A stretch of 32,646 bases of DNA, taken from positions 10,591 to 43,236 of the forward strand of contig PANM01000007.1 in assembly GCA_002708385.1 (NCBI GenBank). Reading direction: 5' to 3'. The DNA is from Methanobacteriota archaeon (GTDB taxonomy: Archaea > Thermoplasmatota > Poseidoniia > Poseidoniales > Thalassarchaeaceae). A model generated the notes under the pieces. The model was not told where the DNA came from, ran no database searches, and was given only the letters and a program-made list of their open reading frames with translations. Positions 12,406 through 19,956 of this stretch are shown piece after piece. The position numbers and the translations under genes are program-made. The number at the start of each line of letters is the position of its first letter. Positions within the stretch are counted from its first letter, which is position 1.

Positions 12406-12819
12406 TTATTTCCCAATGGCTGGTTGTTTCAATCTAGACAACGGAATTGCGATTGGTGGCAGGTGATCTGAAAGACGATGTCTACTGGTTTTTGGATGCA
12501 TCAAATCACCGGAAAGTGCAGCATCAATTACATCTTGTTTTGAGATTGAATCCCTTCCACTGTTAGGCCATAAATCAAGTTCTATTGAGTCATCATCCAA
12601 ATAATCGATCAAAACACAAGGAACACATAGCAAACCGATCCTCTTTGCTACATTATATCTATGGTGTCCATCAAGTATTGTACCGGTTGCTCTATCAAGT
12701 AAGAGTGGCTTTGTGTAAGCGTTCCAGCGGTGAGTTATGCGTTCAAGTTGGTCCACCTTTTTTGGAAGAATTTGTTCATGAGGACGGAGCACTTCTAGTG
12801 GCACCAACTCGACCTCCAT
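12406..12819 (-). CDS. ParB-fold protein resembling archaeal free L-serine kinase SerK (compact form)
   Basis: LRPHEQ, TKPLLLDRATGTILDGHHRYNVAKRIG, VLIDYLDDDSIELDLWP and SKQDVIDAALSGDLMHPKTSRH correspond to SerK/ParB-like family blocks. Confidence 0.7.
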   Translation of the reverse strand: MEVELVPLEVLRPHEQILPKKVDQLERITHRWNAYTKPLLLDRATGTILDGHHRYNVAKRIGLLCVPCVLIDYLDDDSIELDLWPNSGRDSISKQDVIDAALSGDLMHPKTSRHRLSDHLPPIAIPLSRLKQPAIGK

Positions 12820-12893: not shown

Positions 12894-14126
12894 ATGGAAG
12901 ACCTATCGAGCCAACTGTCTGACCCCGACAAGTTGGTCTTAGATAGGCTATGCGAGCGGGGTGAAGCTTGGGTAGTTGGTGGCTGGGTTAGGGATTCATT
13001 GGCAGGGAAAAGACCTACTGAAATGGATATAGCAACAACCTTGACTCCTCAAGTTATTAGTAGAATTTTTGAGAAAACAATTCCAGTCGGTGCAGCCTAT
13101 GGGACAATTTTGGTTATTGATGAAAAATCAGAGAAATCATGGGAAGTAACCACTCTGCGTAGTGACGGTTCATACGGAGATGGTAGAAGACCTGATCAAG
13201 TAAAATTTGGCGATGATATATACGAAGACCTAGCAAGAAGGGATTTCACGATTAATGCAATGGCATGGGAGCCAAAAACTGGTCAAATCATAGACATAGA
13301 TTCTGCCGGACAGAATGATTTGAAATTGGGTATTGTTCGTGCTGTTGGACTGCCAGAGGAACGAATTAAAGAAGACGGCCTGAGAATTTTGAGGGCTTTT
13401 CGATTCCTTGATGCCGGAGAGCCGAGACCTAGAAGATTGGAAGCAGATTTACAATCTGCGATTATAGAAAATTTACAAATGCTTGACTTGGTTTCTTCTG
13501 AACGAAAATGGGCTGAGTTATCGAAGATTTTTAAGGGGCAAAGAAGGAACGAAATTATTCAGTTGATGGATGATTGTAATGTGCTTAATCGACTAATTAA
13601 AAATACAAAATTCTCCATGAAATGCCAATTTTCCGGAATACCTTCAGTTGATATTGCGATACTCTGCTCTGAAGATGAACGTACGGGGATTGAGCTGGGT
13701 AACCATTTGAAAGAGCAGTTGAAATTATCAAATCTTGAGGCATCAACAATTCAATTTTTACATGACTTGAAATTGACCGACTTGAGATTAGAAATTACAT
13801 CACTTAGAAGATTTAACTCAGCATTATCCAACTCTATGAAAGATGAAGTAATGCAATATTTCGGAGAACAAGCAATTGAATTCATCGATGCTGCATCTCA
13901 AATTGAGCCTCTATCGATGGGGAACAAACCAATGGTAGCCGGAGAATACTTAATGGAAATCACCGGCTTGGAAGCCGGGGTTAGGCTTGGTCGGCTAAAG
14001 GGCTGGCTGCACCGAAGACAAATCGAAGAAGATTTACGAAGTACTGGAGAGATAATCTCTTTGTTGGATACTCTAGATTGGGAAAATGGAGAGCCAACAT
14101 CTTGGCCTTCTTTGAGTTGGCCCTAA
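12894..14126 (+). CDS. cca: tRNA nucleotidyltransferase / poly(A) polymerase family, bacterial-type class II CCA-adding enzyme
   Basis: VVGGWVRDSLAGKRPTEMDIATTLTPQVI, ARRDFTINAMAW, EDGLRILRAFRF, SSERKWAELSKIF: class II head and neck motifs. Confidence 0.92.
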   Translation: MEDLSSQLSDPDKLVLDRLCERGEAWVVGGWVRDSLAGKRPTEMDIATTLTPQVISRIFEKTIPVGAAYGTILVIDEKSEKSWEVTTLRSDGSYGDGRRPDQVKFGDDIYEDLARRDFTINAMAWEPKTGQIIDIDSAGQNDLKLGIVRAVGLPEERIKEDGLRILRAFRFLDAGEPRPRRLEADLQSAIIENLQMLDLVSSERKWAELSKIFKGQRRNEIIQLMDDCNVLNRLIKNTKFSMKCQFSGIPSVDIAILCSEDERTGIELGNHLKEQLKLSNLEASTIQFLHDLKLTDLRLEITSLRRFNSALSNSMKDEVMQYFGEQAIEFIDAASQIEPLSMGNKPMVAGEYLMEITGLEAGVRLGRLKGWLHRRQIEEDLRSTGEIISLLDTLDWENGEPTSWPSLSWP

Positions 14127-14633
14127 TCACAATTCTCCTAGATATTCGACATATTCATCCGCATCTAAGAATTGATCCTCATCAAATTCATGAGGTTTGA
14201 CAATCAAAAACCATCCATCTCCGTAAGCGTCATCATTTGCTAGGTCAGCATTATCTTCGACTTCACCGTTAAGTTCCAAAACCTTACAAGGGAATGGAGA
14301 ATTAATCAATACTCTATCTGAAACTGTCCTAACAGTTACCAGCAATTCACCAATACCAATTTCATCACCTGGGGAGGAGGATTCTGATCTTCCCTCTCCA
14401 TCGTCATTATCTCGGACTCCAGCGACTCCCTCATCGTCAAGAACAAACTCGCTAGTATCTTGTGGATGAGGTAGAATAACTCGAACTACGTCTCCATAAT
14501 CTGCGCGCAAAAATTCAGACATACCTACCTTAACGGTTCCATCCTTTTCATCTATCAATTGAAGCCATAGATGTTCAAGTGTATAACGGCGGTCGTGAGC
14601 GACTCCAAATTCGAAGTAGTCCGAGTCAGACAT
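14127..14633 (-). CDS. Glycine cleavage system H-like protein lacking the canonical lipoyl lysine
   Basis: N-term RRYTLEHLWLQLIDEKDGTVKVGMSEFLRADYGDVVRVILP, then LLVTVRTVSDRVLINSPFPCKVLELNGEVEDNADLANDDAYGDGWFLIVKP; GcvH layout with VRTVSD where GcvH has VKAxSD. Confidence 0.8.
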   Translation of the reverse strand: MSDSDYFEFGVAHDRRYTLEHLWLQLIDEKDGTVKVGMSEFLRADYGDVVRVILPHPQDTSEFVLDDEGVAGVRDNDDGEGRSESSSPGDEIGIGELLVTVRTVSDRVLINSPFPCKVLELNGEVEDNADLANDDAYGDGWFLIVKPHEFDEDQFLDADEYVEYLGEL

Positions 14634-14756
14634 ATCAATCCCCGAAAAGGCCGCCCATGGTCTCTGATTTGAATCATTCGTTCTGGGTATAAGCGGGTTA
14701 TGGCAACTTACGATGTATTAACAATGAATGGTTACTCGGTAGTGTGAGGATACAAT

Positions 14757-15932
14757 ATGGACTATGCTGAAACGGAAGAACAGAGTATGATTCGAGAAAT
14801 GGTTCGCGACTTTGCTGAGCAGGTTTTAGCACCTACTTGCCTTGAAAGAGATAGAGAACAAAAGCCACCTATAGAAGAATGGAAAGCCTTCTGTGAATAT
14901 GGTTTACAGGGAGTAACAATTCCTGAAGAATTCGGTGGCAATCCGATAGATGATATCTCCGAAGCAATTATTGTTGAGGAACTCGCACGGGTAGACCCCT
15001 CCTTTTCGGTTATGTATTGTGTTCATGTTGGTCTATGCTCTATGACAATCGCTTTGCATGGAAATCAAGAGCAAAAACAACGCTATCTTCCACGCTTGGC
15101 TGCAGGAGAAATCGGCGCTTACTCACTATCCGAAGCCGGAGCTGGGACTGATGCTGCAGCAATGAGTTGTAAAGCAAAATTGAGTGACGATGGGGCTCAT
15201 TATATCCTCAATGGAGAAAAAATGTGGGTGACAAATGGATCATCAGCGGACATTTATGTTCTATTTGCAAAAGATGTCGATCACCCAGATTTTGGTGTCA
15301 AAAAGCACGGTGGGACAACTGCATTTATTGTCGACTCAAGTATGGAAGGATTCAGTGTTGGAAAGAAAGAAGACAAGTTAGGGATTAGGTCTTCTGATAC
15401 CTGCGCTCTATTGCTTGAGGATTGTAAGGTACCAGTTGAGAACGTACTGAAAGATCGTGGAAAAGGATTCCCAATTGCTATGAACGCGCTAGACAATTCA
15501 AGAATTGGCATTGCTGCACAGGCTCTAGGAATTGCACAGGGTGCCTATGAGTCTGCATTGAATTACGCACATCAACGCGTTGCCTTTGGAAAGCCTATCG
15601 CTCACCACCAAAGTATTGGCAACTACCTGGCAGATATGGCTACTCAAACCGAGGCTGCCCGTCACATGGTCTACAAAGCAGCATGGGCAAAGCAAAGGCA
15701 TTACGAAGAAGATGGCTCAAGACATTCAATGGAAGCTAGCATGGCGAAATTGTTTGCAGGAGACACCGCAATGTGGGTGTCTGAAAGAGCTGTACAGGTA
15801 TTGGGAGGCTATGGGTACACTACTGATTTCCCAGTCGAGAGATTCTTCCGAGATGCAAAAATAACTCAAATTTATGAAGGGACTCAAGAGGTTCAAAGAA
15901 TTGTAATCAGCAGATCGATAGCCCCGGAGTGA
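14757..15932 (+). CDS. Acyl-CoA dehydrogenase
   Basis: YSLSEAGAGTDAAAMSCKA, NGEKMWVTNGSSADIYVLF, RIGIAAQALGIAQGAYESALNYAHQRVAFGKPI, QIYEGTQEVQRIVISR (catalytic Glu context). Confidence 0.95.
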   Translation: MDYAETEEQSMIREMVRDFAEQVLAPTCLERDREQKPPIEEWKAFCEYGLQGVTIPEEFGGNPIDDISEAIIVEELARVDPSFSVMYCVHVGLCSMTIALHGNQEQKQRYLPRLAAGEIGAYSLSEAGAGTDAAAMSCKAKLSDDGAHYILNGEKMWVTNGSSADIYVLFAKDVDHPDFGVKKHGGTTAFIVDSSMEGFSVGKKEDKLGIRSSDTCALLLEDCKVPVENVLKDRGKGFPIAMNALDNSRIGIAAQALGIAQGAYESALNYAHQRVAFGKPIAHHQSIGNYLADMATQTEAARHMVYKAAWAKQRHYEEDGSRHSMEASMAKLFAGDTAMWVSERAVQVLGGYGYTTDFPVERFFRDAKITQIYEGTQEVQRIVISRSIAPE

Positions 15933-17186: not shown

Positions 17187-18737
17187 CTACTCGAACCAAC
17201 TATACTCTCTATGGCCTTCTAGGTTACCTTCACGGCCAATGCCAACTAGGGCGAATTCCTTTGCAGGCGTCACTACAGAATCCTTTTGAGAACCCCTGTG
17301 TAATTTTTCATAGACATCCTTGTCTAATGGAGTTCTTGAGGACAACCTGTCGAAAAGAGAGAATCGAGCAGCTATTTCTTTCCATTCTGGTTGGACTATT
17401 CCTTCGAATACCTTGGCTTTAGCTCCCGAACCATATCCACATAGGCCTACTCTCTTTCCATCCATGTCTGTACCATCGAGATAATCAGATTCCATAGTCG
17501 ACATAAGAGCTAGGAAAATTGAACCAGTATATTGGTTTCCAATTAGACTAGAGGCCCTTTGTGTCTTCTCAATTCTCTGCTCAACAAATTGTTTGAATTC
17601 TTCCGTCTTTGAAATCAATCTTCTGTAGGAGTCATTTGCTTTTTCAAATTTCTCGTATCCTTCGGGTGTATCATCAAAATCTTCCGGGAATGGTTCAGAT
17701 CCAATCTCTGAAACTATATTTTCCCACATCGGAAGCTCACGCCTATCGTGACGGAAAACATCAGGGAACATCCTCTTTCCTTGAAATGCGTATGGGAGAT
17801 GGACGATGATTCGATCCCATTGTTCTGTTAATATCGTATCTTCATCTGGATCATAGCGCCCAGAGTTAATCGCCTTCTTTCTGAAATCTACAAAAGCGGT
17901 TTTTACTGATTCTGAATAGCACCGATTTGAGAATTGGCCATCGAAAACAGGAGTGTCTTTGTGAATTTTCAATGTGTGTGATTCAAACATTATATCGTCT
18001 TTCTTAGAGGATTTAGGTAAAATCGCGAGGATTTTCTCAACAAGTCCTTCCTTTCTTGGTTCACCAGCCTCTTCTGCGAGATCTAATACATTCTCAACTA
18101 CTGTTTTCATTTCTACTTCTCTTCTTGGCTTGAAGAAATCGTGAACGGGCATTGTAGAAACTCCCCAATTATCGGGAATTTCAATCAAACGTGGATTATG
18201 TCGAATTAAAATCGCACCTCCACCTGCTCCTTGAGTATATTCACCGGATGAGCCTAAATCGTATTTGGCATTGTCAGCGAAGACGACTATACCAATTCTA
18301 TCCTCTTTTTCTCCACCTCTGGCGACCCAATCCAAGGTGTTATGCATTGCATCAACAGCACCAATACAGGCGAAAGTGAGGTCAACTACGTCGCAATTTC
18401 TGAAGCAATCCTTACCGTATGTATCGTCGTATCGCTGTTCTAGCATATCCATGATGTAAGTTGCAGTTGGCTTTGCACCATCCAGTGCGGATTCGGTTCC
18501 AAGGTATATGCGACCTATTTTTGTTGGGTCTAATCGGTTCCTATCAATTAGTCTAGCACAAGCATTTGCTCCCATTGTAGCGGTATCTTCGTGTGCATCT
18601 GGAATTGCCATGGCAGACAGCCCCAAACCTTTGTTGAGTTTTCCAAAATCAGCACCACGAAATTCTGCAAAGTCCTTCATGTCAAAGTAAAGCTTAGGGA
18701 AATGAATCGCGATATCGTCAATTCCAACACCTACCAT
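17187..18737 (-). CDS. Hydroxymethylglutaryl-CoA synthase, long bacterial/eukaryotic-like form
   Basis: MVGVGIDDIAIHFPKLYFDMKDFAEFRG, VVDLTFACIGAVDAMHNTLDWV (active-site Cys), VHDFFKP, IIVHLPYAFQGKRMF, NQYTGSIFLALMSTME, KRVGLCGYGSGAKAKVFEG. Start at internal ATG (18735-18737). Confidence 0.88.
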   Translation of the reverse strand: MVGVGIDDIAIHFPKLYFDMKDFAEFRGADFGKLNKGLGLSAMAIPDAHEDTATMGANACARLIDRNRLDPTKIGRIYLGTESALDGAKPTATYIMDMLEQRYDDTYGKDCFRNCDVVDLTFACIGAVDAMHNTLDWVARGGEKEDRIGIVVFADNAKYDLGSSGEYTQGAGGGAILIRHNPRLIEIPDNWGVSTMPVHDFFKPRREVEMKTVVENVLDLAEEAGEPRKEGLVEKILAILPKSSKKDDIMFESHTLKIHKDTPVFDGQFSNRCYSESVKTAFVDFRKKAINSGRYDPDEDTILTEQWDRIIVHLPYAFQGKRMFPDVFRHDRRELPMWENIVSEIGSEPFPEDFDDTPEGYEKFEKANDSYRRLISKTEEFKQFVEQRIEKTQRASSLIGNQYTGSIFLALMSTMESDYLDGTDMDGKRVGLCGYGSGAKAKVFEGIVQPEWKEIAARFSLFDRLSSRTPLDKDVYEKLHRGSQKDSVVTPAKEFALVGIGREGNLEGHREYSWFE

Positions 18738-18825
18738 AGTCTCGTCTCCTTCGTTCGCCCGCTTGAGGGAAGGGTTATGATACCTGTGGCGTTTTTTCAA
18801 CAAAATGTACTGAACTGTAATCGCT

Positions 18826-19956
18826 TCACTGCGAGCCAGTAATGTCATTTACAGCGTCTAAAAGCCCACTATTTTCCTCAAAATGCTTTACAACTGGCGA
18901 TAGAACTTCGGTCAGTCCCCTCGCAACCGCCATTTTTGCGTCAAATGGATGTATTTCATCAGAAGCAACTGCTTCTATGAAAGAATCGATGTCGTTCCAG
19001 GTGCTAGGATTACCAAATTCTGGCTTTGGTTCGACTACTAATTTGTGATTATGGGGCATTACAATATGTTTGGCGATTTCGAAAACTGGAGATTCTGGAT
19101 TACCCACTTCGAGGAATGCTTTTCGGAACTTTTTCTCTATTTGTTTTGCAGTATCATGGACGAAAATCGCATTATTTGGATCTGATTTGGACATTTTGTG
19201 GTCAAATGAGTCCATACGGCCTGCACCATGTCCTTTCAGACCCGATATCATAGGGGTGTGGATACAAGTAGCCTTTGTCCAATTGTTTCTGTCTGCGACT
19301 TCTCGCATGTACATGTGGGCTTTACGCTGATCCATACCTCCAAAGGCAATATCTATTTTTAATTCGAAAATATCTGCTGCCTGCATTGCTGGATAAAAGA
19401 AAGCAGACAAATCGTCATCTGATGAATCCTCACTTCTACCCATGATACTGAACGTTCTTCGGGCTCGATTCAGACTCATACCTTTAGAACATCGTAAAAC
19501 CCTCTCCCAATAAGCTCCTGAATCCATTATTTCACTGGCACTTACAAATCGTAATTGACCTGGGCCATCGCCTTCTTCTGGGAAATTAAGAAGAACCCTG
19601 AAAACCTCTGACATGTACTGTCCTGCGATTGATATCTTCTCCATATCTCGACCAAATTTGTCATTCACCCATGCGTGCCAATCTGCAAGTAGAATCAATA
19701 CGTTGACACCTTCTGAAAGCATGTTACGAATGGTTTCTGCCAAAATTACCCAACCAAGGTGGGCTTTACCACTAGGTTCCAAACCAATGTATGCTCTAAC
19801 AGTAGAGTCACCGCCATGGCTATCGGAACCAGATAACACTCCCGAGAGGTGGTCTAATCCGACCACTTCCTCGACATTGGCGAACATTTTGTCAATAGAC
19901 GCACTGACCTCGGGGTCGAGAACATTTGGCGTCTCTCGGCTTGTCATATGTATCAC
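18826..19956 (-). CDS. tyrS: Tyrosyl-tRNA synthetase (archaeal type)
   Basis: AYIGLEPSGKAHLGWV (HIGH-like), ILLADWHAWVNDKFG, FYPAMQAADIFELKIDIAFGGMDQRKAHM, DHKMSKSDPNNAIFV (KMSKS). Confidence 0.9.
   Translation of the reverse strand: MIHMTSRETPNVLDPEVSASIDKMFANVEEVVGLDHLSGVLSGSDSHGGDSTVRAYIGLEPSGKAHLGWVILAETIRNMLSEGVNVLILLADWHAWVNDKFGRDMEKISIAGQYMSEVFRVLLNFPEEGDGPGQLRFVSASEIMDSGAYWERVLRCSKGMSLNRARRTFSIMGRSEDSSDDDLSAFFYPAMQAADIFELKIDIAFGGMDQRKAHMYMREVADRNNWTKATCIHTPMISGLKGHGAGRMDSFDHKMSKSDPNNAIFVHDTAKQIEKKFRKAFLEVGNPESPVFEIAKHIVMPHNHKLVVEPKPEFGNPSTWNDIDSFIEAVASDEIHPFDAKMAVARGLTEVLSPVVKHFEENSGLLDAVNDITGSQ

Follow-up and report, generated by a model that had tools for sequence, protein, structure and literature searches.

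Relatives of the glycine-cleavage H protein (GcvH) have been described or proposed outside glycine cleavage. LbpA is a GcvH-like lipoate-binding protein of sHdr sulfur oxidation and has a strictly conserved lipoyl-lysine (PMC6067878). Simiate/Abitram (FAM206) of eukaryotes has been proposed to be an H-protein descendant with work outside glycine cleavage, and has been reported absent from bacteria and archaea (PMC3859600). We found no papers in the open-licence literature on a prokaryotic GcvH lacking the lysine, or on GcvH in Poseidoniales.

Here we describe such a Lys-less, GcvH-like protein, encoded in a window of 32,646 nucleotides (the whole stretch of DNA analysed) from a 1.14-Mb, 74.9% complete MAG of Ca. 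Thalassarchaeaceae (Poseidoniales; Marine Group II, MGII). Its gene (14127-14633, minus strand) encodes 168 amino acids plus a stop and, as first predicted, is a real GcvH-like open reading frame. Pfam GCV_H matches the product at E 5.9e-16 (58.9 bits; cut-off 22.2), and a Foldseek search with its AlphaFold (AF2) model returns solved H-proteins as the top matches (TM 0.79 by target length; best 1onl), so that by both routes the protein has the GCV_H barrel-sandwich fold. The model was built from 47 sequences, with a mean pLDDT of 68.7 and a pTM of 0.63. The frame is intact in every Lys-less ortholog that we read.

With canonical GcvH this protein shares the fold, the core length and the YT.EH.W and Y..GW landmarks, but it has no lipoyl-lysine, carries a Leu in place of the HEW Glu and has hydrophobic residues where the arm pocket has Ser and Asp. 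Its gene also lacks gcv linkage, and its score against the NCBIfam gcvH equivalog, 57.3 bits, lies under the cut-off of 115.85. It resembles LbpA in being a GcvH relative, LbpA having a role outside glycine cleavage (PMC6067878); however, LbpA keeps its lipoyl-lysine, whereas the Lys-less Poseidoniales family never does (93 orthologs). No shdr genes were recognised in the inspected neighbourhoods, part of whose genes were profile-scanned. GcvH-L of Streptococcus pyogenes (PDB 5a35) and the NCBIfam family not_gcvH (TIGR03077) are also GcvH-like and give weak profile or structure matches, but their matches to the window protein are much weaker than that of canonical GcvH. GcvH-L keeps the modified lysine. 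Simiate/Abitram would offer a parallel in its proposed H-protein ancestry and its proposed work in other processes.

The lipoyl-lysine hairpin and the arm pocket

The hairpin that bears the lipoyl-lysine in GcvH corresponds to 14301-14345 (minus strand). We set its register by MAFFT alignment with 12 canonical Poseidoniales GcvHs, by hhalign profile-profile comparison and by hmmsearch against solved H-proteins; in all three the hairpin aligns without gaps, with GELLVTVRTVSDRVLINSP of the window protein facing GEAVAVVESVKTASDIYAP of PDB 1onl. As the hairpin strands of the AF2 model run over residues 97-103 and 107-111, S105 (codon TCA, 14319-14321, minus strand) forms the turn, and it is this residue that occupies the lipoyl-lysine column. 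The register does not depend on the E. coli GcvH row of the alignments, since the rows of canonical archaeal GcvHs concur with the sequences from the PDB. The original prediction had placed R102 at the lipoyl-lysine position. Its codon, AGG at 14328-14330 (minus strand), was given correctly, but in the profile alignments, which have no gaps here, and by the geometry of the hairpin this residue lies three positions away, in the column of the conserved Glu that precedes the Lys. R102 is also only partly conserved (R in 57/93 orthologs, the others having mostly T or W). The main point of the prediction nonetheless stands, because the lysine is absent in the corrected register too.

Among 93 distinct orthologs, the residue in the Lys column is E (25), D (19), S (14), Y (10), F (9) or N (8), with Q, L, H, T or G in the rest and K in none; the same column is K in 12/12 canonical Poseidoniales GcvHs. 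Neither of the observations that the original prediction had named as counting against it was made: no relative has Lys at this column (0 of 93), and no other Lys at the hairpin tip is conserved across the clade. A sequencing error or one-off mutation was rejected, as the loss is shared by the orthologs of relatives. Having lost the lysine that holds lipoic acid, the protein is unable to act as a normal cofactor carrier, and it is presumably not lipoylated. A Lys two positions beyond the tip was considered as a substitute site and rejected for want of conservation across the clade: it is present in 12/13 sequences of the sister family and 8/80 of the window's family, and is Arg in the window protein. 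Separately, 13 orthologs carry a 4-residue insertion at the hairpin tip.

The pocket that protects the arm in GcvH is likewise absent, judging by sequence and by the residue roles described for the E. coli H protein, in which the HEW Glu together with Glu-12 holds the aminomethyl arm (PMC7733448). L22 (14568-14570, minus strand) stands in place of this Glu (E. coli Glu-14), and the column is L, I, V or M in all Lys-less orthologs that have it; the Ser and Asp columns at +3 and +4 after the tip are mostly V, L or I and L in these orthologs. Y17, H21, W23, N122, N133, Y137, G140 and W141 are common to the Lys-less protein and canonical GcvH, and in many columns where canonical GcvH is invariant the residue has been switched (canonical P5, L8, E15, R18, T29 and T37). 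We also note that C116, in PFPCKV (14286-14288), is Cys in 77/93 orthologs; its column is the Gly of APVSG in canonical GcvH, and most sister-family sequences have Gly there too.

The acidic stretch noted earlier was located correctly, at residues 66-91 (D66-E91; 14361-14438, minus strand), and overlaps residues 58-89, which AF2 predicts to be disordered (pLDDT below 50). This segment spans 21-34 amino acids in the window's family, with a mean of 37% acidic residues, 2 in the sister family and 2-4 in canonical GcvH. We rejected it as the core novelty, because it is variable, specific to one family and missing from sister-family orthologs. Comparison with close relatives gives a Nei-Gojobori dN/dS of 0.013-0.055 outside residues 60-89, where computable, and about 0.10-0.34 within them, where not saturated. 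The insert is thus a fast-evolving loop in a protein that is under strong purifying selection.

Distribution and genomic setting

The window protein was matched in 39/39 genomes of a search of relatives, and a Lys-less ortholog was scored in 97/98 Poseidoniales genomes (119 genomes sampled in the class), spanning two families and about 20 genera. The named loci with the family are MGII/Poseidoniales, several of the nearest bearing the label Ca. Thalassarchaeaceae or Thalassarchaeum. In genomes of the other family of the class the scores are far lower, and every GcvH or GcvH-like gene in the two that we read has the Lys. The 22 homologs that we read, from 16 Thermoplasmatota genomes outside Poseidoniales, likewise all keep it. 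Among the Thermoplasmatota sampled, then, the Lys-less paralog is restricted to Poseidoniales. In a tree, all 21 Lys-less proteins fall in one clade (support 100/100) on a long stem of 1.12 changes per column; as the tree was midpoint-rooted, it does not fix how old the duplication is in relation to the order. Other divergent paralogs were seen along the way. One locus of the other family of the class (L165, G039:C3, 1-1101) has a GcvH-like gene with an ESGKWVG motif besides canonical GcvH, and SGKW/SAKW-type paralogs, all with Lys, are also found in other Thermoplasmatota (L150, L155, L158 and L160).

Most relatives in the 39-genome search gave a second, weaker match to the window protein. 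All twelve of these that we translated are canonical GcvH with Lys, nine of them adjoining an RNase H-like gene, and in a single-contig genome (G024) the Lys-less gene and canonical GcvH occur together. Nearly all relatives have gcvP and gcvT; in the window's own genome these lie on one contig (G000:C40) and an LplA-family gene on another (C36). The Lys-bearing GcvH whose presence elsewhere in the genome the original prediction had proposed to check was not found in this 74.9% complete MAG, nor was the RNase H-like neighbour, in a search run without a positive control. The simplest reason is probably an assembly gap, which fits both the missing neighbour and the incompleteness of the MAG.

In the neighbourhoods of both families, we recognised no gcv or lipoylation gene next to the Lys-less gene. 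The earlier remark that gcvP, gcvT and a lipoate ligase gene are not nearby therefore holds locally, but all three are present elsewhere in the same genome, so that absent neighbours do not mean an absent glycine cleavage system. The Lys-less gene lies head-to-head with an acyl-CoA dehydrogenase gene (14757-15932, plus strand) throughout the order, with a gap of 102-139 bp in 84/84 scorable loci (77 of the window's family and 7 of the sister family). In the shared divergent intergenic region (14634-14756), a BRE/TATA-like element, CGAATNRTTNAAAT (14667-14680, minus strand), sits about 40 bp upstream of the Lys-less gene and is kept in most inspected loci of the window's family, which suggests an ordinary expressed gene. 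The divergent arrangement weakly suggests a functional link to the acyl-CoA dehydrogenase; such adjacency may be retained by genes that have no function in common, and others nearby are conserved as well.

On the other side, loci of the window's family have a CCA-adding tRNA nucleotidyltransferase gene (12894-14126, plus strand) lying tail-to-tail with the Lys-less gene, which in the sister family usually heads a cluster whose members we read from their sequences, the names being our own, as phosphoribosyltransferase-, Dph2-, Orc1/Cdc6-, S6e- and aIF2-gamma-like. Two further observations concern nearby genes. A 137-amino-acid ParB/SerK-like protein (12406-12819) is encoded near the CCA-adding enzyme in both families and scores 55 bits against a SerK cut-off of 380. 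An HMG-CoA synthase-like frame of 553 amino acids (17187-18848) matches its profiles over two stretches set apart from each other, which points to an insertion within the frame.

Competing readings and a proposed role

We lean towards the view that this is an ancient, Poseidoniales-specific GcvH paralog of single origin that has been maintained and now works, without carrying a cofactor, in binding or regulation. A paralog of the H protein would have arisen once in Poseidoniales, lost both the lipoyl-lysine and the pocket sheltering the loaded lipoyl arm, and been kept thereafter by strong purifying selection; its barrel-sandwich surface may now serve as an adaptor or regulatory subunit, binding rather than carrying. 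The original idea, that a GcvH scaffold closed to lipoylation at the canonical position has been repurposed, finds good support in the single old clade in which the Lys is never present, and is further backed by the loss of the arm-clamp residues, the strong purifying selection and the canonical GcvH found elsewhere in relatives.

Decay to a pseudogene, or an error in one MAG, would explain a missing Lys taken by itself, but the frame is open in every ortholog read, dN/dS is far below 1, the gene is kept across both families and their many genera, and the promoter-like element is conserved in the window's family; we regard this reading as ruled out by the order-wide distribution and the dN/dS values. 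It is also highly improbable that the protein is an unusual carrier with its group attached elsewhere. Both the Lys two past the tip, nearly constant in the sister family, and the PFPC Cys, common among the orthologs at the Gly column of APVSG, could be imagined as sites, but most of the window's family has R, T or V at the former column, most of the sister family has Gly at the latter, and the arm pocket is lost in all orthologs. Nor do we give much credence to an adaptor linked to RNA or translation. Such a role would suit a gene that lies upstream of the Dph2-, S6e- and aIF2-gamma-like genes (again by our own reading) in one family and beside the CCA-adding enzyme in the other, but these downstream neighbours differ between the families, and only the acyl-CoA dehydrogenase is common to both as an immediate neighbour.

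A more tentative question is whether the protein mimics GcvH within its old pathway, binding GcvP, GcvT, the L protein or LplA in GcvH's stead, free of cofactor, and so modulating glycine cleavage or lipoylation. Its derivation from the GcvH fold, the coexistence of gcvP, gcvT, LplA and canonical GcvH in the same genomes and the residues shared with canonical GcvH, from Y17 to W141, are all consistent with this. We nevertheless consider such mimicry unlikely: neither family has a recognised gcv or lipoylation gene beside the Lys-less gene, many invariant columns are switched, and the shared residues may merely maintain the fold. The absence of gcv linkage and the switched columns instead lead us to favour, if more weakly, a partner outside glycine cleavage, for which the divergent acyl-CoA dehydrogenase is the best candidate.

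A binding or regulatory protein is probably what the Lys-less copy has become, and the gene should not be annotated as GcvH, because the defining feature, the lipoyl-lysine, fails. In MGII, archaea that abound in surface oceans, the gene could be taken for a GcvH by annotation pipelines and in presence/absence surveys, although its product lacks the usual lipoate site. It is possible, though doubtful, that an order-wide, cofactor-free H-protein acts in MGII as a dedicated regulator or adaptor tying in acyl-CoA oxidation, glycine cleavage or both; by a similarly speculative analogy, it might be to carriers what a pseudoenzyme is to enzymes. If it is indeed a binding-only derivative of the H protein, it would be a natural case of a swinging-arm carrier without its arm, its scaffold held under strong selection.
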